64,000 bases of DNA, from NCBI GenBank assembly GCA_012517155.1, contig JAAYVN010000026.1:1-64000 (forward strand), written 5' to 3'. The translations under genes were made by a program, and so were the position numbers. Below, one piece after another: positions 32,810 to 42,281 of the stretch (position 1 is its first letter; the number at the start of each line of letters is the position of its first letter). Source of the DNA: Ignavibacteriales bacterium (GTDB lineage Bacteria; Bacteroidota; Ignavibacteria; Ignavibacteriales; Ignavibacteriaceae). The notes beneath the pieces were generated by a model. That model worked only from the letters and a program-made list of their open reading frames with translations. It was not told the DNA's origin and searched no databases.

Positions 32810-34555
32810 TTAATTGAGCGAGCTGTCCGTAATTTTCAACTTTACCATCTTTCGCCATAATGTTGATGGATTTATCGACAATTCCTTCGCCGCTTTTCTC
32901 CTGTTACCGTTGTGTTTTTTCAGAACAGCAATAATTGTCCCTCTTTCCACCAACTCAAGTTTTTGCAGATTAGACACATCTTCGTTTTTATTATAGTCTG
33001 CCGATTTTTCTCTCAGTCTCTTTGGAAGACTATCCACACAAATTGACTCCCTGTTACAAAGTATGAAACAATGCTCGATTATGTTTTCCAACTCTCTGAT
33101 ATTACCGGGGAACGGATATTCGGAAAGTATATCGTATGCTTCGGGTGAGACACTGGTAATGTTTTTTGAAAATTTGCGGTTGAAAATTGTAATAAAATGA
33201 TTTATAAGTATGGGGAGATCATCCCTCCTTTCGCGTAAAGGGGGTAAGTGGATATTAATTACGTTAATTCGATAGAAGAGATCAGCTCTGAATCTCCCTT
33301 CTCTGATTTCCCGATTAAGGTCTTTATTTGTTGCGGCTATTACTCTGGTATTCATTTTTATGGTTTTATTTCCGCCGACTCTTTCGAATTCCAGAGTTTC
33401 AATTACTCTTAGTAGTTTTGTTTGCACGGTCAGGGAAAGATCCCCAATCTCATCAAGAAAGAGCGTGCCGTTCTGAGCCAGTTCAAATCTCCCGGTCTTT
33501 GTCTTTGATGCGCCGGTAAAAGCCCCAGCCTCATGACCGAACAGTTCACTCTCTATTAGCGTTTCTGCAAATGCACTGCAGTTTACTGCAATGAACGGTG
33601 CGTTTTTCCTGGGGCTGTTAAGATGAATAGCCCGCGCTACAAGTTCTTTTCCTGTTCCGCTCTCACCGGTGATCAGCACGGTGGTATTCGTCTGAGAGAC
33701 TGATTCGAGTACGTGGATAACCTGCTGAAGTTCCTTGCTCTTCCCTACAATATTCTCGTATTTGTAAGTATCTGCAAGATGGGAAGTCAGGTTTTTTATT
33801 TCACTAATGTCAATAAATGTCTCTACTGCGCCAATTATTTGTTTTTTGTTATTCACCAGAATCGCGGAATTAACCTTAATAGGGAGTTTGCGGTTGTTTT
33901 TATTCAGGATCTCAACTTCATTACCTATGGTTGGTTTTCCTTTCTGCATGGTAGTTTCCATGTGACAACCATTCCGGCAGATGTTCGAATTAAAAATCGT
34001 CCAGCATTTTTTTCCTATCGCTTCTGTTTTTTTATAACCAGTTATATTTTCGGCGGATTTGTTGAATGAGGTTATTTCCCAGTCGTTATTTATTGTAAAC
34101 GTTCCCTCAATATTGCTGTTGAATATTGCATCCAGCCGGTTTTTCTGTTCAATCAGCTCGCCGGTTTTTGACTCTATTTCATTTGCCAGCGAAAGCATTT
34201 CATAAGTATCCCTGAAAATCAGAACCACACTAATCACACTTTCGTCCTTTAATATCGGAGTTAACGAAGCAAGCACAGGTTTTGTTGAACTGTCTTTATG
34301 TGTCAGGTGCAGAGATAAATTGGTGAAAGTAAGATTATTTGCTATTGAATCGCGAATATATTTCAGATCCCTCGAATGTTCTTCAAAAAGAAGCCGGATG
34401 GACTGAGAAAGTATATCATCCTCCCCAAATCCGGTTATACGCGAAGCTGCTTCATTGAACACAATTATATTTAGATCCTTGTTGATTATCGCAATGCCAT
34501 CCGGCAATACCAGGGTTTCCTTGCTGCGGTCTATTATTTGCTTTACTTCACTCAT
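32810..34555 (-). CDS. Sigma54-dependent transcriptional activator with two PAS domains
   Basis: A 581-residue enhancer-binding protein. PAS1 covers ~15-115 and PAS2 ~140-255. PAS2 contains Cys184, Cys193 and Cys197 (KKCWTIFNSNICRNGCHMET), a pattern suited to an Fe-S cluster or metal and seen in activators of redox operons. The AAA+ domain has Walker A GESGTGKE (297-304), the sigma54-contacting GAFTGA (344-349) and Walker B TLFLDEIGD. A Fis-type helix-turn-helix (NRRKAAKELSINPSTLWRKM) is at the C-terminus. It has no receiver domain, so it probably senses a redox or metal signal directly. It is divergent from the radical SAM/ORP-like operon, which is its likely target. This matches the layout of the ORP operons in Desulfovibrio. 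Confidence 0.93.
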   Translation of the reverse strand: MSEVKQIIDRSKETLVLPDGIAIINKDLNIIVFNEAASRITGFGEDDILSQSIRLLFEEHSRDLKYIRDSIANNLTFTNLSLHLTHKDSSTKPVLASLTPILKDESVISVVLIFRDTYEMLSLANEIESKTGELIEQKNRLDAIFNSNIEGTFTINNDWEITSFNKSAENITGYKKTEAIGKKCWTIFNSNICRNGCHMETTMQKGKPTIGNEVEILNKNNRKLPIKVNSAILVNNKKQIIGAVETFIDISEIKNLTSHLADTYKYENIVGKSKELQQVIHVLESVSQTNTTVLITGESGTGKELVARAIHLNSPRKNAPFIAVNCSAFAETLIESELFGHEAGAFTGASKTKTGRFELAQNGTLFLDEIGDLSLTVQTKLLRVIETLEFERVGGNKTIKMNTRVIAATNKDLNREIREGRFRADLFYRINVINIHLPPLRERRDDLPILINHFITIFNRKFSKNITSVSPEAYDILSEYPFPGNIRELENIIEHCFILCNRESICVDSLPKRLREKSADYNKNEDVSNLQKLELVERGTIIAVLKKHNGNRRKAAKELSINPSTLWRKMVKLKITDSSLN

Positions 34556-34589
34556 ATTTTAAAGTTTTTCCACAAAGATAACTTAATAA

Positions 34590-34634
34590 TTGCAAAAATG
34601 CAACGCACTTCCACATAATAGTGCTGAAATGCAA
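34590..34634. promoter_or_regulatory. Candidate paired upstream activating sites
   Basis: TTGCAAAAATGCAA (34590-34603) is a perfect inverted repeat of TTGCA with a 4-base spacer. GTGCTGAAATGCAA (34621-34634) matches it at 11 of 14 positions. The centres are 31 bp apart, about three helical turns, and both are ~180 bp upstream of the candidate sigma54 promoter. This geometry is what is expected for dimers of a Fis-type enhancer-binding protein. Confidence 0.5.
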
Positions 34635-34797
34635 TAAAACTTTTTCAGCTTAATTCTTAAATAAATAAACCAGGCAAGCCAACTGACAGGGATAATTATC
34701 CTCTTTTTCGTCTTTTTTCAAAGGAAATCTGACCCTCTGATTTTGATTATCATCCCCATTTGTAAGAAATATAACCGGTTATTCAGTTCTTTCAGCA

Positions 34798-34813
34798 TTG
34801 GCATGGAATTGGA
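34798..34813 (+). promoter_or_regulatory. Weak candidate sigma54 promoter
   Basis: TTGGCATGGAATTGGA has a good -24 element (TGGCAT against TGGCAC) with GG at 34800-34801, but the base pair 12 positions on is GA instead of GC. It is the best match in the region and is placed 50 bases before the start codon. The match is weak and rests partly on the presence of a sigma54 activator next door. Confidence 0.3.
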
Positions 34814-34863
34814 ACTCATTTACGGACGATGTGATTTTATTCCAATTTTAATAAAGGTGCAAA

Positions 34864-35955
34864 ATGGAAAATTCTGAAAAAAAATCTGGTAATAAAACAG
34901 GTATTGAAGTGAAAAAAGGAATTAAAAGTTTTCTTCATCAGAAAATGGAACTTTTCTGTGATAAACTGGAAATGAGTATCCTGAAAGATAATGCGGATAA
35001 AAGTGGCGTAGTGTATGGACCAGTTCCCTCAAGAAGACTTGGATACAGTCTGGGAATAAACAATATAAAAAGAAAGATATGTACCTATGACTGTATTTAC
35101 TGTCAGGCAGGAAAAACTACCTGCTGTTCAGAAGAAAAGGACTGCTGCTTGTCTCCGCATGAGTTGTACTTCCTGGTAAAACAGAAGATACAGAGTATTA
35201 AAAAAGAAAATTTACATGTAGACTACATTAGTTTTGTACCAAATGGCGAACCTACAATAGATGGCAATCTCGATAAAGAGATAAAACTCCTCAGGGAATT
35301 TGGGTATAAAATTGCCGTCTTTACCAACTCTTCTCTCCTCTGGAACGACAATGTTAAAGCCAGGTTAATTAATGCTGATTACGTTTCCGTTAAAGTGGAC
35401 ACGCTCGACGAGGAACTGTGGGAAAAAATTAACCGACCTCATTGCCGGCTCCGTTTCGATAAGGTTATTCAGGGAATCCGGGAGTTCTCGAATTCATTTG
35501 ACGGCACTCTCACTACTGAGACCATGCTAATTAAAGGAATGAACGATAACTTAAAGGAAATCCGGGCAACAGGTGAATTCCTGAATAATCTTAAGCACGA
35601 TAAGGCTTATTTTACAATCCCTATTCGTCCCCCCGCAGAACCCTATGCAATGATCCCCTCCAAAAATACACTCATGGACCTCAGAAATTATATTAATGAT
35701 AATATTCGGGATGCAGAAATGTTGTGTTGTCCTGAAAGCGGCGATTTTAGTATATTTGATAAGATAGAAAATGATATTTTGGGGATTTTGTCGGTTCATC
35801 CTATGAGGGAGGAGGCATTGAAGAGCATGCTGGAGAAAAAGGATTTGAACAGAAGCATTATTGGTTTGCTGGTTGAACGGGGTGATATTAAACGGGTCAG
35901 TTATGAAGAAACCACATTCTATTCGCTTGCGGATATTAAGGAGCAGGAAGTATGA
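34864..35955 (+). CDS. Radical SAM protein, COG0731-like, with C-terminal winged helix
   Basis: A 363-residue radical SAM enzyme. The cluster motif is CTYDCIYC (Cys73, Cys77, Cys80), preceded by the family signature YGPVPSRRLGYSLGIN. It resembles the COG0731 group, often annotated as wyosine-synthase-like though bacteria do not make wyosine. Extra cysteines (TTCCSEEKDCC, near 85-96) follow the motif. Residues ~300-363 look like a small winged-helix domain (GILSVHPMREEALKSMLEK ... GDIKRVSYEETTFYS). It is the first gene of the operon divergent from the sigma54 activator; its stop overlaps the next start (ATGA). A role in maturing the cofactor or proteins of the ORP-like system is inference. Confidence 0.85.
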   Translation: MENSEKKSGNKTGIEVKKGIKSFLHQKMELFCDKLEMSILKDNADKSGVVYGPVPSRRLGYSLGINNIKRKICTYDCIYCQAGKTTCCSEEKDCCLSPHELYFLVKQKIQSIKKENLHVDYISFVPNGEPTIDGNLDKEIKLLREFGYKIAVFTNSSLLWNDNVKARLINADYVSVKVDTLDEELWEKINRPHCRLRFDKVIQGIREFSNSFDGTLTTETMLIKGMNDNLKEIRATGEFLNNLKHDKAYFTIPIRPPAEPYAMIPSKNTLMDLRNYINDNIRDAEMLCCPESGDFSIFDKIENDILGILSVHPMREEALKSMLEKKDLNRSIIGLLVERGDIKRVSYEETTFYSLADIKEQEV

Positions 35956-36356: not shown

Positions 36357-38000
36357 ATGACAACTAAATTACCTTCCTTAGTCGTTACGGGAGCGAGTGG
36401 CTTTATTGGCAGATTTCTTTTGGAAAGCATTAAGGATGAATTTAAAATATTTGCAATTGCAAGAAGATCCCGTAAAGAAGCAAATATCCCGTATCACAAA
36501 AACATTCACTGGATTCAATGGGATGTGGCAAACAACGAAACCCTTAAGGATGTCGGAAAATATATCTTGGATAATGGGGGTGCCGAAACTGTTATTCATC
36601 TCGCTGCTTTCTATGATTTTACCTACGAAGATAATGATGAGTATGAACGCACGAATATAGGCGGTACACGCAATGTCTTGGATCTGGCTAAAATTATAAG
36701 TATCAAGAGGTTTTTATTCGCAAGCTCGCTCGCTGCCTGTAATTTCCCCAAAGGAGATGAAAAAATTACCGAAACTACTCAGCCTCTTGCTGACTTTGCT
36801 TATGCAAGGAGTAAGAAAAAGGGGGAGGAGATGGTGAAGGAGTATTCCCCATTTTTTAAGACCCATGTTATCAGATTTGCTGCTGTATATAGCGACTGGT
36901 GTGAGTATGCACCTCTCTATAAATTCCTTTTAACCTGGTTATCAAAAAAAATTGATTCGAGGATTCTTGCCGGGAAAGGAGAATCAAGCATTCCTTATAT
37001 ACATGTCCAGGATATAGTATCAATAATCAGAGTAATTATTAAGAAATCCGATGAACTAAAAAGTTTTGGTATTTATAGTGCCAGTGCCGATGGATCCGTC
37101 TCTCACAGCGAGTTGTTTAAAATCGCCACTGGATACTATTTCGGACGGTTTATTAAGCCCTACTATCTGCCAAAATCACTTGCTTACCCGGGACTGTTTG
37201 CAAAAAAACTTTTAAAGTATTGCCATTTTTTCTGCGAGGAACCATTTGAGAAAAGCTGGATGATTAAATACATTGATAAAAAATTGAATGTTGATTCTTC
37301 ACTAACAAGAAAGATCCTGGAATGGGAACCTGCTCCCAGATACCACATCACAAGGCGATTGCTTTTTATCCTGGAGAAAATGAAAAGTCATCCTGATGAG
37401 TGGCATCTTAAAAACGAAGCCGCACTTAAGAAAGTGACCCGAAGAGAAAATTTGATGATTTATGAAGCTCTTTCCGAGAAAAAAGACTCTCTTATCTCCC
37501 TTATAATTGACAAGATTACGTCAAATGAAAATGAATCGAAGTTCTTCAGATACAAAAATCTTGATAGCGAGGACTTTAAGTGTTATTTGAGTACACTCTA
37601 CCATCTGCTGATGGCAACCGTTAGAAGCGGCGACAGGGGTTTGATGATCCAGTATATTGACGATATTGCTCTGAGGAGATTTGCCGAGGGATTTGAATCT
37701 GCTGAAATTTGCGAAACACTAGTAGTAATTAAAGATGTTATCCTTAAAGAACTGAATGAATTACCGGAATTGAAGAAAATCAGACAAATAGTGTACGACT
37801 ACATTGGCTTGACCCTCCAACTGGCACAGGACGAAGTAGAGGACCTTTACTATCGTCTGATTGACAGAATGCCCAAGGAAAGAATTTCCGAGTCACCATT
37901 ATTACCCGACTGTAAAAAATTACAAGCTATGATCAGACAGTTAAGCGCTTTTTATCAAATTTCACCAGACGAGGGGAAGTATTACGAGGATATGCAATAA
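36357..38000 (+). CDS. Extended SDR (epimerase/reductase) fused to an RsbRD_N-like helical domain
   Basis: A 547-residue two-part protein. Residues 1-~340 are an extended short-chain dehydrogenase: VTGASGFIGRFLL (10-22), DVANN, HLAAFYD, and the catalytic FASS (121-124), Tyr149 and Lys153 (YARSK). Residues ~365-505 are all-helical and look like the RsbRD N-terminal globin-like sensor domain (IIDKITSN, Y..LDSEDFKCYL, GDRGLMIQYIDDIALRRFAEGF). In known stressosome proteins such domains are sensors; a fusion to an SDR is unusual. It sits between two membrane protein genes in the sigma54-linked operon. Substrate and signal are unknown; the family match of the C-terminal part is by pattern only. Confidence 0.75.
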   Translation: MTTKLPSLVVTGASGFIGRFLLESIKDEFKIFAIARRSRKEANIPYHKNIHWIQWDVANNETLKDVGKYILDNGGAETVIHLAAFYDFTYEDNDEYERTNIGGTRNVLDLAKIISIKRFLFASSLAACNFPKGDEKITETTQPLADFAYARSKKKGEEMVKEYSPFFKTHVIRFAAVYSDWCEYAPLYKFLLTWLSKKIDSRILAGKGESSIPYIHVQDIVSIIRVIIKKSDELKSFGIYSASADGSVSHSELFKIATGYYFGRFIKPYYLPKSLAYPGLFAKKLLKYCHFFCEEPFEKSWMIKYIDKKLNVDSSLTRKILEWEPAPRYHITRRLLFILEKMKSHPDEWHLKNEAALKKVTRRENLMIYEALSEKKDSLISLIIDKITSNENESKFFRYKNLDSEDFKCYLSTLYHLLMATVRSGDRGLMIQYIDDIALRRFAEGFESAEICETLVVIKDVILKELNELPELKKIRQIVYDYIGLTLQLAQDEVEDLYYRLIDRMPKERISESPLLPDCKKLQAMIRQLSAFYQISPDEGKYYEDMQ

Positions 38001-38031: not shown

Positions 38032-38514
38032 ATGTATTTAGTTAAAATACTTGATTTTGTCAGAATTGGACTTGTGGCTCTTACGTTTTATTTTGGTTAT
38101 AGTATCGGATTTGAAAATGAATATGATCCTAATGCTCAACTGCATTTTATGATTCCAATTATTATTGTTGCTGTAGCAGGAATTTCGGGTTTGGAAGGTC
38201 TTTTAATGCCGGAAAAAGCAGCAAAAATAAAAGGATATGAAGTCGGAAGTAACTATCAAATGCAGTCTGCCATAGCTTTGCTGTCATATGCTTTTACTGC
38301 AATTATTATATATTTTGCAAATTGGGGAACGAAAGCTGAATTAACGATATTTTTCGCATTTATATTCTTTTTCTTTTTCTCGGGTGTAAATCATTTTGTG
38401 GATGCCGTAAAACGAAAGAATTATAAATGGCAGAACATTAATCGCTTATTCATTGTACTGCTGTTAATGGCGGGAATGGTTTATCCCGTTTATATGGCTG
38501 TTAAATTAATGTAA
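38032..38514 (+). CDS. Membrane protein of unknown function
   Basis: A 160-residue protein with about five hydrophobic helices (10-28, 38-58, 77-95, 103-120, 138-157). The third to fourth helix region carries SGVNHFVDAVKR, with conserved-looking N-H. No function is recognised. It lies 31 bases after the SDR fusion gene and 44 bases before the DUF5320 gene, on the same strand. Confidence 0.65.
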   Translation: MYLVKILDFVRIGLVALTFYFGYSIGFENEYDPNAQLHFMIPIIIVAVAGISGLEGLLMPEKAAKIKGYEVGSNYQMQSAIALLSYAFTAIIIYFANWGTKAELTIFFAFIFFFFFSGVNHFVDAVKRKNYKWQNINRLFIVLLLMAGMVYPVYMAVKLM

Positions 38515-38558
38515 TAAAATTTCTTATTTAATAATAATAAAATATGGATGGAGGAAAT

Positions 38559-38804
38559 ATGCCTAATTTAGATGGAACCGGACCAAACGGAGAAGGTCCG
38601 TTAACCGGAAGAAGAAGAGGTCGCTGTAAAGGTAGCCTCAATAATATAAAACCAAAAGAAGAACCAGAAGAAAAAATTCAAACTCCCGAAGAGTCTAACC
38701 TTCCCGGCAGGGGACGCGGATTCGGCAGTGGTCGAGGTCTTGGAAAAGGTCGCCAGGGTAGAGGAGGAGGAAAACGAAACAGATTCCGGGGGAGTAATGA
38801 ATGA
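38559..38804 (+). CDS. DUF5320-family Gly/Arg-rich small protein
   Basis: An 81-residue low-complexity protein beginning MPNLDGTGPNGEGPLTGRRR, the hallmark of DUF5320, and ending in a Gly/Arg-rich tail (RGRGFGSGRGLGKGRQGRGG). A strong Shine-Dalgarno GGAGG at 38550-38554 precedes the ATG at 38559; an in-frame ATG at 38544 is less likely. DUF5320 genes are commonly found beside NifX/ORP-type and MinD/ferredoxin ATPase genes in anaerobes. Function is unknown; the tail suggests nucleic acid or polyanion binding, but that is speculation. Confidence 0.85.
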   Translation: MPNLDGTGPNGEGPLTGRRRGRCKGSLNNIKPKEEPEEKIQTPEESNLPGRGRGFGSGRGLGKGRQGRGGGKRNRFRGSNE

Positions 38805-38865
38805 GGGGAATATTGAATTTGTAAAACTCAATAATATAACTTTTGAAAAAGGAGTATCGAAGCAG

Positions 38866-39243
38866 ATGAGATTAGCAGTAGCGATCGAAGAACGTAATGA
38901 AAAAGAACTTGTAGCTGAACATTTCGGAAGATGCACTAAGTTTAATATATGTGAACTGGATGCTGAAAATAATCTTCTGAAAATCGAGGAGTACTTTAAT
39001 CCGCTCGCCGGACAACACAGCGGTGCCTGTCAGCTTCCCGGATACGTTAGACAATTTAATGTCAATACCATTATAGCTGGAGGTATGGGACAGAAAGCAA
39101 TAGCCAATTTCCATAGTTTCGGGATAGATGTCATTACTGCTCCAGGGGTTATCTTTAACGATGTTATTAAGTTATTCTGTGAAGGGAAATTGTCCGGTTA
39201 TGAAACATGTACTCATGGACATGGTCACGAGCATAATTGTTAG
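38866..39243 (+). CDS. NifX/ORP-like (dinitrogenase Fe-Mo cofactor domain) protein with His-rich tail
   Basis: A 125-residue protein of the NifB/NifX-type cofactor-binding fold (MRLAVAIEE..., AEHFGRCTKFNICEL, INTIIAGGMGQKAI-like core, APGVIFNDVIKLF). The C-terminus ends CTHGHGHEHNC, a strong metal-binding tail. The start at 38866 follows AAAGGAG (38848-38854) and coincides with the domain start; an alternative ATG at 38797 overlapping the DUF5320 gene is possible. The family includes the orange protein (ORP) that binds a Mo-Cu cluster in Desulfovibrio. The stop codon is adjacent to the next ATPase start. Confidence 0.85.
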   Translation: MRLAVAIEERNEKELVAEHFGRCTKFNICELDAENNLLKIEEYFNPLAGQHSGACQLPGYVRQFNVNTIIAGGMGQKAIANFHSFGIDVITAPGVIFNDVIKLFCEGKLSGYETCTHGHGHEHNC

Positions 39244-40140
39244 ATGAAAAATGGTTTGAAGGTTGCCGTTGCCTCCGGTAAAGGAGGCACCGGAAAAACA
39301 ACTATTGCTTGTGGTTTGGCAAGTGTAATTGATTTTCCTGTTTATATTGACTGCGATGTTGAAGAACCAAATGGTCACATTCTGCTTAAACCGGAGATTC
39401 ATAATGTAGATACCGCATTTAAACTAGTCCCCTCTATTTCCGTTAATAAATGTTCTTTGTGTACTAAGTGTATCGAAGTATGCGAATTCAATGCGTTATT
39501 CAAATTGGGAGAGGAGATTTATTTGCTTCAGGAACTCTGTCATAGTTGTGGGGCTTGTTCCTGCTTCTGTCCTGAGAATGCTATTACGGAACAAAAATGG
39601 GAAATCGGGAAAATTAGGAGTGGAAAGATAAATGATAAGCTCTTTTTTTTCGATGGTATCTTGAAAATCGGTGAACAGTCAGCCCCCCCCTTAATTCGAC
39701 AAGTTAAAGGGAAACTCTTTTCTGGTAGTGAAGCACCTTTTTATAAGAACCATAATATTATTGTTGATTCTCCACCCGGAACTTCATGTTCGTTGTTTGA
39801 GAGCATTAAAGAAGTTGACTTTTGCATATTAGTGACTGAATCCACACCGTTTGGACTTAATGACTTGAAACTTGCGGTGGATGTAATTAAAGAAAGCAAT
39901 ATTCCTTTTGGAATAGTGATTAATAAATATGATCCTGAATATCCTGAAATTGAACAATACTTACAACTAACGGGTATTACTCTTTTATTAAAAATCCCTT
40001 TTTCGAAAAAAGTAGCTCAGATCTATTCCCGAGGGACGATCCCTTCCTATGAAGACGAGAAATTTGCACAAATGATGAAACTTCTTTGGATGGGTGTCGG
40101 GAATGAAGTGGATAAAACCATAAGGAGCAAGGTAAATTAA
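39244..40140 (+). CDS. MinD/ParA-superfamily ATPase with inserted ferredoxin domain (first)
   Basis: A 298-residue deviant Walker ATPase. P-loop ASGKGGTGKTT is at residues 10-20, and the switch region includes VDSPPGTSC. A 2[4Fe-4S] ferredoxin domain is inserted: Cys70, Cys73, Cys76, Cys80 and Cys99, Cys102, Cys105, Cys109. This architecture is that of the paired ATPases of the ORP complex and relates to Mrp/NBP35-type Fe-S carriers. It begins one base after the NifX-like gene and is followed by its paralog 82 bases later. Probable role: ATP-driven assembly or transfer of a metal cluster, or membrane-linked positioning, by analogy only. Confidence 0.92.
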   Translation: MKNGLKVAVASGKGGTGKTTIACGLASVIDFPVYIDCDVEEPNGHILLKPEIHNVDTAFKLVPSISVNKCSLCTKCIEVCEFNALFKLGEEIYLLQELCHSCGACSCFCPENAITEQKWEIGKIRSGKINDKLFFFDGILKIGEQSAPPLIRQVKGKLFSGSEAPFYKNHNIIVDSPPGTSCSLFESIKEVDFCILVTESTPFGLNDLKLAVDVIKESNIPFGIVINKYDPEYPEIEQYLQLTGITLLLKIPFSKKVAQIYSRGTIPSYEDEKFAQMMKLLWMGVGNEVDKTIRSKVN

Positions 40141-40222
40141 CTTTTAACTTTTCCAAACTCGTGAAAATATCTAAATTGAATATGGATAATCTTCTGAAGG
40201 GTTTAATTGTACATGGCGGATA

Positions 40223-41092
40223 ATGCAAAAATGGTATAAACAAATAGTTGTACTAAGCGGAAAAGGTGGAACAGGAAAAACTACTGTCTCATCTAGTCTG
40301 GCTGAGATAGTTTCAGATAAGATTGTAATAGATGCGGATGTTGATGCCTCGAATTTACATCTGGTCTTAAAACACAAAGAAATTGAAAGACATAATTACT
40401 CAGGAGGAAAAAAAGCCCGAATAATTAGTGAGAAATGCTCTTTGTGTGGTTTATGCGAATCGGTTTGCAGGTTTAGTGCAATTAAGAATTTTCAGGTTGA
40501 TAAAGTGGCTTGTGAAGGATGCGGGTTTTGTTATCGGATATGTCCTGATGGGGCTATTGAGTTTGTTGAAACAAAAACGGGAGAATATTATGAAAGTAAA
40601 CTCGTTGATGGCTCTGATTTCTATTATGCAAAGTTATTAGCAGGAGAAGGGAATTCTGGAAAACTCGTAAGTGAATTGAAAAAGACAGCGATAAATAATA
40701 TAAATCCTGATATAAAATGGATAATTATTGATGGACCACCCGGCATCGGTTGTCCAGTTAATGCCTCTCTTTCCGGATCGGATTTTGTACTGATTGTAAC
40801 GGAACCAACCGAGTCGGGTTACCATGATCTGAAAAGACTGATTGAGCTGCTAAATGTTTTTAAATTAAAAGCCGGTCTCATCATTAATAAGTTTGACATT
40901 AATTCTGAGATGAGTGAAAAAATAGCTCATTTTGCTAAGGAATGCGGCATACCCTTAGTAGGGAAGTTCCCATTTGACTATATTTTTGTTAAAGCGGTTC
41001 AGAAATCAAAAGCTTTAGTGCATGAAAGTGAATTTTATAAAAAGCAATTTATAACTATTTGGAAAGAAATTGAAATAATAATTAATAAATAA
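40223..41092 (+). CDS. MinD/ParA-superfamily ATPase with inserted ferredoxin domain (second)
   Basis: A 289-residue paralog of the preceding protein. P-loop LSGKGGTGKTT is at residues 11-21, Walker A' region DADVDASNLH at 38-47, and IDGPPGIGCP forms the switch II segment. The ferredoxin insert uses Cys72, Cys75, Cys78, Cys82 and Cys97, Cys100, Cys103, Cys107. Ferredoxin-bearing ATPases normally come in such pairs, suggesting a heterodimer. The gap of 82 bases before it has no hairpin. Confidence 0.92.
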   Translation: MQKWYKQIVVLSGKGGTGKTTVSSSLAEIVSDKIVIDADVDASNLHLVLKHKEIERHNYSGGKKARIISEKCSLCGLCESVCRFSAIKNFQVDKVACEGCGFCYRICPDGAIEFVETKTGEYYESKLVDGSDFYYAKLLAGEGNSGKLVSELKKTAINNINPDIKWIIIDGPPGIGCPVNASLSGSDFVLIVTEPTESGYHDLKRLIELLNVFKLKAGLIINKFDINSEMSEKIAHFAKECGIPLVGKFPFDYIFVKAVQKSKALVHESEFYKKQFITIWKEIEIIINK

Positions 41093-41102
41093 AGGAAGAA
41101 AA

Positions 41103-41423
41103 ATGAAAATTGCAATAACATCGAGAGGAGAATCATTGGATTCAATGGTTTGCGAACAATTCGGCAGAACCCCATACTTCATTATTCTGGATCCGGTTAC
41201 TATGGAATACCAGGCAGTTGTCAATACAGCCGAGCAACTGCAAAGCGGAGCTGGGCCTAAAGCAGCAGAACTTATTTTAAGTTTTGGAGCGGAAAAAGTT
41301 ATAACCGGTCATGTTGGCGATAAAGCGGAAGCTGCTTTAAAAAAGGGACATGTAGAAATCCATGATGGATATTGCAATACTATGAAAGTGATAGAAGCAA
41401 TAGAAAAATATAAGGGAAGTTAA
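41103..41423 (+). CDS. NifX/ORP-like (dinitrogenase Fe-Mo cofactor domain) protein
   Basis: A 106-residue single-domain protein close in size to ORP. It shows MKIAITSRGESLDSMVCEQFGR-type start (seen as ITSRGESLDSMV and CEQFGRTPYFII), the GPKAAELILSFGAEKVITG core and a C-terminal VEIHDGYC. The conserved C.QFGR and A..L motifs fit the cofactor-binding fold; Cys17 and the Cys near residue 92 are candidate ligands. It follows the second ATPase by 10 bases with Shine-Dalgarno AAAGGAAG. Confidence 0.9.
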   Translation: MKIAITSRGESLDSMVCEQFGRTPYFIILDPVTMEYQAVVNTAEQLQSGAGPKAAELILSFGAEKVITGHVGDKAEAALKKGHVEIHDGYCNTMKVIEAIEKYKGS

Positions 41424-41444: not shown

Positions 41445-42281
41445 ATGATCAAAAAATTGCTGATTGAAACAGTTCAGATAACTCTGCTCGTCGGGGTTAT
41501 GATGATACTGGTTGATTTGATTAACGTACTCTCAAAAAAACGGCTTGAGGGATATTTTATAAAGGCAAGAAGATATAAGCAATATGTACTCTCTTCTCTG
41601 ATTGGTGCAGTACCCGGTTGTTTAGGGGGATTTATGAATGTCTCTTTGTATGTTCATGGATTTATCACCTTCGGCGCTTTGACCGGAAGTATGATCGCTG
41701 TTTCCGGCGATGAGGCATTCGTAATGCTGGCAATGTTTCCGGAAACTGCTCTGGTCTTATTCGCCATTTTGTTTGTTATTGGCTTGTTTAGCGGAATGCT
41801 TATAGATGTAGTTGTAAAAAAGTATAAAATAAGCACTTGCTCCAATTGTAAGGAAATGATTGTCCATATGAATTTGGAAAGGAATACTCTTCATTACTTA
41901 AAAGAGCACATTTATGGGCATATTATAAAAAAACATTTATGGAAAACTGCGCTCTGGACTTTCGCCGCGTTAGCATTAGTTGAAATTGGTCTGGAATATC
42001 TGAATCTGGAAAAATTCACAAGCGAATATAAAATCGTTTTCCTTCTATTTGGGGCGCTGGTGGGTCTTATTCCCGAATCGGGACCGCATTTAATTTTTGT
42101 AACTTTATTCGCACAGGGCTTGATCCCTTTTTCTGTTCTCTTGACCAGTTCAATTGTTCAGGACGGTCATGGCATGTTACCGATGCTGAGTTATTCTTTT
42201 ACGGACTCAGTAAAAATCAAGGTCTTTAATCTCATTATCGGTTTATCGCTTGGCTTGTTCCTTTTCTTGATTGGTTTATAG
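41445..42281 (+). CDS. Putative 10TM heavy-metal exporter-family permease (ArsP_2 type)
   Basis: A 278-residue polytopic protein with about eight to ten hydrophobic helices and an internal duplication: SLIGAVPGCLGGF near residue 51 and GALVGLIPESGPHLIF near 205. The cytosolic loop in the middle contains CSNCKEM (near 131) and HMNLERNTLHYLKEH with many His, possible metal ligands. This matches the family annotated as putative 10TM heavy-metal exporters related to the ArsP arsenic permeases. The substrate is not known. It is 21 bases downstream of the ORP-like gene and overlaps the methyltransferase reading frame. Confidence 0.78.
   Translation: MIKKLLIETVQITLLVGVMMILVDLINVLSKKRLEGYFIKARRYKQYVLSSLIGAVPGCLGGFMNVSLYVHGFITFGALTGSMIAVSGDEAFVMLAMFPETALVLFAILFVIGLFSGMLIDVVVKKYKISTCSNCKEMIVHMNLERNTLHYLKEHIYGHIIKKHLWKTALWTFAALALVEIGLEYLNLEKFTSEYKIVFLLFGALVGLIPESGPHLIFVTLFAQGLIPFSVLLTSSIVQDGHGMLPMLSYSFTDSVKIKVFNLIIGLSLGLFLFLIGL

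Follow-up and report, generated by a model that had tools for sequence, protein, structure and literature searches.

The window, a 64,000-nucleotide stretch from the genome of an anaerobic Ignavibacteria-type bacterium (Ignavibacteriales), includes a gene in which an extended SDR with an intact catalytic triad is fused to an all-helical, globin-like tail related to the RsbRD_N domain. An SDR joined to an RsbRD_N-type tail is a new domain architecture, and no description of an SDR-globin fusion was found in the literature searched, which lay largely outside subscription journals. The original prediction of an SDR followed by an RsbRD_N-like helical tail was confirmed by Pfam, alignments, AlphaFold and hhalign; its domain call was right in substance, and its stressosome framing was not upheld for this genome.

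The explanation put forward here, to which we give slightly less than an even chance, is that the fusion protein would be a cytosolic, catalytically competent and probably NADP(H)-dependent extended SDR, the tail of which would bind a protein partner or some small ligand and adjust or localise the enzyme. The protein would be co-produced with a four-transmembrane-segment (4-TM) protein encoded immediately upstream and probably dock to it, and the pair would assist the redox machinery of anaerobes as an accessory module: ORP-like Fe-S/MinD proteins in this genome, hydrogenases or arsenic genes elsewhere. The fused architecture and the gene pairing are established, and NADP use, catalysis, regulation and docking are inferred. 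The invariant triad and RR motif, the homology and predicted fold of the tail, the co-occurrence with the 4-TM gene and the hydrogenase, ORP-like and arsenic contexts count for this explanation. Against it count Pfam scores below the cut-off, weak Foldseek E-values, the uncertain interdomain geometry, the Desulfobulbaceae loci and the most distant members, which barely match RsbRD_N. Coupling of sensing to enzyme activity, as originally proposed for the fusion, is a plausible hypothesis.

RsbRD_N-type globin-like sensors are known inputs to STAS, kinase and transcription-factor outputs, and few of their ligands have been identified. Since the activity of an enzyme can be assayed, its conserved fusion to such a domain would offer a direct read-out for ligand screening. 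The fusion also lies repeatedly next to or within sets of hydrogenase and Fe-S genes, which singles it out as a so far uncharacterised accessory factor in the energy metabolism of anaerobes.

Gene and domain organisation

The features of the window that surround and make up the fusion gene are listed in Table 1. A GGAG-like ribosome-binding site stands directly before the start codon of the fusion, and 3 nt separate this codon from the stop of the 4-TM gene. In the full-length AlphaFold model (pTM 0.62) residues 346-532 were helical throughout, giving a tail of about 190 helical residues, and the modelled geometry between SDR and tail is uncertain.

Table 1. Positions of the fusion gene, its domains and the neighbouring genes in the window.
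Feature	Position	Strand	Remarks
PAS-PAS-sigma54 activator-HTH_8 regulator	32810..34555	-	divergent from the fusion run
COG0731-type radical SAM protein	34864..35955	+	first gene of the co-directional run
4-TM membrane protein (predicted), 133 aa	35952..36353	+	conserved partner; distantly DoxX_3/DUF4345-like
SDR-globin fusion ORF	36357..38000	+	ATG start, 547 aa
Extended SDR (Epimerase) domain	36357..37382	+	residues 1-342; Pfam, alignments, AlphaFold/Foldseek
All-helical, globin-like, haem-less RsbRD_N-related tail (predicted)	37383..37997	+	residues 343-547 (Pfam match 369-466)
DUF6790 membrane protein	38032..38514	+	downstream of the fusion
DUF5320 protein	38544..38804	+	
NifX/dinitrogenase Fe-Mo cofactor-type protein	38728..39243	+	Orp8-like family
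MinD/ParA-type ATPase with 4Fe-4S motifs	39244..40140	+	Orp3/Orp4-like
Second MinD/ParA-type ATPase with 4Fe-4S motifs	40223..41092	+	
Second NifX-type protein	41103..41423	+	
ArsP_2-type putative heavy-metal permease	41445..42281	+	towards the end of the run

The neighbourhood was compared with the ORP (orange protein) complex of Desulfovibrio, which includes Orp3, Orp4 and Orp8 and has a sigma54-controlled operon pair (PMC6345978). Common to both are a sigma54 activator, two MinD/4Fe-4S ATPases and NifX-type proteins. The window differs in having an SDR, which is absent from the published component list (PMC6345978), and in the lack of MrpORP (Orp9) from its co-directional run. No match to a sigma54 promoter with at most two mismatches was found between the divergent operons (34540-34880). 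Homologues of the COG0731 protein and of the sigma54 regulator also lie near the fusion in several relatives. The NifX-type ORF beginning at 38728 probably has its true start further downstream. Positions 38544-41423 hold an ORP-like set outside Desulfovibrio, in the order DUF5320, NifX-type, two MinD/4Fe-4S ATPases and NifX-type.

The 4-TM partner gene

Proteins of the 4-TM family are 130-160 aa long, with four predicted transmembrane segments and two invariant intramembrane histidines, H20 and H57, which could possibly form a haem b or metal site. The family corresponds to no clear Pfam family. Homology between the 4-TM protein and the downstream DUF6790 protein was not supported, and a DoxX_3-SDR "Rosetta stone" in the phylum was rejected, most DoxX_3 frames being short and stand-alone and the four loci read having no SDR neighbour.

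Almost every Bacteroidota-type locus in which the upstream side is present has the 4-TM gene directly 5' of the fusion. Across the order, the fusion was found in 19 of the 20 genomes with a strong 4-TM match and in 4 of the 144 without one (Fisher p 5e-20, uncorrected for phylogeny). Three of these four genomes have only short or partial fusion frames and the fourth a remnant with stops. In the single genome with a 4-TM gene and no fusion, the 4-TM gene stands beside a gene for a UreH-like membrane protein. The Desulfobulbaceae loci lack the 4-TM neighbour, which is thus not obligatory.

Genes for UreH-like membrane proteins with a His-rich loop were observed beside the 4-TM gene at L118:4912-6111, L091:2476-3602 and L034:464-1717. 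They are co-directional with it in L118 and in L091, where the UreH-like gene precedes the 4-TM/fusion pair, and divergent beside the pair in L034.

Redox contexts in other genomes

The 4-TM/fusion pair moves between redox contexts, which include the ORP-like MinD/NifX cluster of the window, a [NiFe]-hydrogenase operon that the pair closes (L091) and arsenic genes, the pair standing downstream of ArsR, ArsM-like and thioredoxin-like genes (L082-L084); gene names at the loci of other genomes were partly assigned by eye. Also found with the pair, in L032 and L085, were genes for DUF89, CoA-disulfide-reductase-like flavoprotein, Mrp and CGGC proteins. In a Bacteroidales MAG (L034:1669-5028) the reading frame of the SDR-globin protein carries on through a complete [FeFe]-hydrogenase, making 1119 aa in total, with Pfam matches to Fe_hyd_lg_C (306 bits) and Fe_hyd_SSU in the hydrogenase part. 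This fusion adjoins genes reading as [NiFe]-hydrogenase and HdrA-type subunits.

As the main rival explanation, the tail might be a dimerisation or docking module alone, which would place the SDR on the 4-TM protein or on a hydrogenase without any sensing. The Bacteroidales protein, in which the tail joins the SDR to the [FeFe]-hydrogenase, the RsbRD_N proteins that stand alone beside dsrM and the RsbR N-domains, which are dimeric, are all in keeping with such a role. We nevertheless hold it to be somewhat unlikely, since the domain is homologous to known sensor domains and has a similar predicted fold, and since the fast divergence of the tail in relation to the SDR fits a variable input domain equally well.

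The SDR domain

The Pfam Epimerase family (PF01370) matched residues 9-240 with 103 bits (E 1.8e-29, cut-off 20.9) and also matched all 13 aligned members. The extended SDR has an intact triad. Tyr149 and Lys153, originally named as its catalytic residues, were invariant in the 13 aligned relatives, and likewise in a larger set of 23 sequences that spans several phyla. In the larger set G15, G18, R36, R37, S124, C128, C182 and H250 were invariant as well. The domain carries a TGASGFIG motif, and its R36-R37 pair, located where the second strand ends, suggests a preference for NADP over NAD from what is known of SDRs. From the intact triad we infer an enzyme that is probably catalytically competent. 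C128 is situated four residues past the catalytic serine and C182 in the loop that follows strand six; both are unusual.

Foldseek analysis of the SDR part led to GalE/RmlB-type structures. By sequence the nearest solved SDRs, sugar-nucleotide epimerases and dehydratases, score about 60 bits, and by structure they share about 18% identity, a distance too great for a substrate to be assigned from them. The fusion shares the TGxxGxxG motif, the S/Y/K triad and the Rossmann fold with extended SDRs (GalE, RmlB, 3-beta-HSD-like), whereas the globin-like tail of about 200 aa and the two invariant cysteines distinguish it from them.

The NADP-type RR motif and the redox-gene contexts would also suit an SDR part that is not an enzyme in vivo and acts instead as a sensor of the NADP(H) ratio, in the style of NmrA/HSCARG, signalling via the helical tail. 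This is improbable, because S124, Y149 and K153 show no variation across phyla and pseudo-enzyme sensors usually lose the catalytic residues of the SDR. Also improbable is a new two-protein redox-sensing module of anaerobes, in which the 4-TM protein would hold a cofactor between H20 and H57, and the haem-less globin domain of the fusion would read the redox state of the membrane or a hydrogenase and drive an NADP(H)-dependent reaction at a two-cysteine active site.

Relationship of the tail to RsbRD_N

The RsbRD_N model (PF14361) matched residues 369-466 in a search with the whole protein (15.2 bits). The tail alone was matched as well (18.4 bits, E 0.0037), and both scores are below the 24.3-bit cut-off. 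The tails of 8 of 14 relatives matched RsbRD_N (best E 0.0035). The score stayed below the curated cut-off in all members scanned, and the most distant members gave almost no match.

For profile-profile comparison with hhalign, accepted RsbRD_N proteins from the phylum of the host were aligned as a comparison set (A3). The tail family and A3 were aligned over 93 columns with a score of 41.7 (E 1.3e-5), a match well above chance at the level of sequence profiles: 200 column-shuffled versions of A3 scored at most 19.0 and the reversed A3 14.6. The tail family was also matched to stand-alone Ignavibacteria RsbRD_N proteins (E 3e-5) and to RsbR-STAS proteins (E 0.001), and homology was not detected with the dsrM-linked RsbRD_N proteins alone. 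When genomes were searched with the profile of the tail, two proteins that stand alone (E 8e-4 and 9e-4) came up besides the fusions. Both of these proteins exceed the Pfam cut-off of RsbRD_N, and one also matches HisK_N, under the cut-off of that family.

No sequence match to the tail was found in the PDB. AlphaFold modelling of the tail alone (19 sequences; pLDDT 81.6, pTM 0.76) predicted the globin-like fold that had been anticipated, and the top Foldseek matches in the PDB were nearly all globin-like folds, including the ApcE bilin domain, phycocyanins, pXO2-61, pXO1-118, globin-coupled sensors and myoglobin, with probabilities mostly 0.9-1.0 and weak E-values (at least 0.1). None of the histidines was conserved among the 19 sequences, H416 being present in 12. 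A haem sensor was rejected for lack of a conserved proximal histidine; the tail is thus considered haem-less, and haem binding of the usual type is unlikely. From the profiles and models we conclude that the tail is a putative haem-less globin-like domain, a homologue of RsbRD_N beyond the present Pfam boundary.

The Pfam score under the cut-off and the weak Foldseek E-values would fit an unrelated helical extension with a chance likeness to RsbRD_N, an explanation made very improbable by the distance of the hhalign score from its shuffled and reversed controls and by independent structural matches almost all of one fold class. The same two lines of evidence back the RsbRD_N-like globin fold of the original prediction.

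The tail resembles the non-haem globin sensors of the RsbRD_N/RsbR type in its helix pattern, in a conserved motif region near "RRFAEGF" and in a globin-like fold in which the haem histidine is not conserved. It differs from RsbR in its position, coming after the SDR whereas the RsbR domain comes before STAS, and from RsbRD_N in a sequence too divergent to reach the Pfam cut-off. By Foldseek, pXO1-118 and pXO2-61 of Bacillus anthracis, HisK_N, the MabR N-domain and the phycobiliprotein fold belong to the same fold class. Those non-haem globins are stand-alone or joined to kinases or transcription factors, whereas here the domain is joined to an NAD(P)-dependent enzyme. The MabR N-domain, a solved non-haem globin, is reported to give a similar list of nearest folds, RsbR among them (PMC11617747).

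Distribution and integrity of the fusion

Among 59 genomes (the host and relatives), seven relatives had a full-length homologue with 734-885 bits, and all other SDRs reached at most 54 bits. Given this gap, the fusion SDR forms a discrete clade. In the order, the tail was detected at 42 bits or more in 23 of 164 genomes, the frame being about 550 aa wherever the contig permits. Homologues with 37-51% identity were found in a Bacteroidales MAG and in Desulfobulbaceae; the wider contig scan used one query and short exact peptide patterns, and the spread outside Bacteroidota is thus a lower bound.

Sequence identities in the SDR and in the tail rise and fall together (correlation r 0.89, 253 pairs), with faster divergence of the tail in distant members, as expected for an adaptable input or docking domain. 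The tree included several long branches and unresolved forks and was used for grouping alone.

Relatives keep the fusion in one frame, and no separation of two ORFs by frameshift or misassembly was seen apart from an in-frame TAG in the linker of one MAG (L002/L032/L087). It replaces the codon of the invariant W349 (L032:7045-7047) and may be either a genuine mutation or an error of assembly. One genome has a fusion remnant with two stops. A split-gene artefact was ruled out by the recurrence of a single frame of about 550 aa in relatives. The TAG codon notwithstanding, there is practically no chance that assembly or gene calling has joined two genes, as complete members from several phyla and independent assemblies, single-contig genomes included, consist of one uninterrupted frame (515-607 aa).

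Stressosome components and other RsbRD_N proteins

The original prediction stated that RsbRD_N domains normally precede STAS modules in stressosomes. In the phylum of the host most PF14361 matches were in frames of 150-220 aa, which are too short for an additional STAS module, and a position before STAS is therefore not the rule there. Pfam detected no STAS domain in the fusion protein. In the host genome neither an RsbRD_N protein above the cut-off nor a stressosome RsbR was found, an RsbT query gave no match in a search run without a positive control, and the STAS proteins at the loci read were only RsbV-type, SulP or other. Together these results make a link to a stressosome unlikely and leave the stressosome framing unsupported in the host genome. 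Membership of the fusion itself was rejected, as the protein has no STAS and the RsbT query gave no match.

Several of the short PF14361 frames of the phylum adjoin dsrM. At L043, L046, L047, L049 and L051 a DsrM-like gene is immediately preceded by one for a stand-alone RsbRD_N protein of about 160 aa, and such pairs occur in one family of the phylum.
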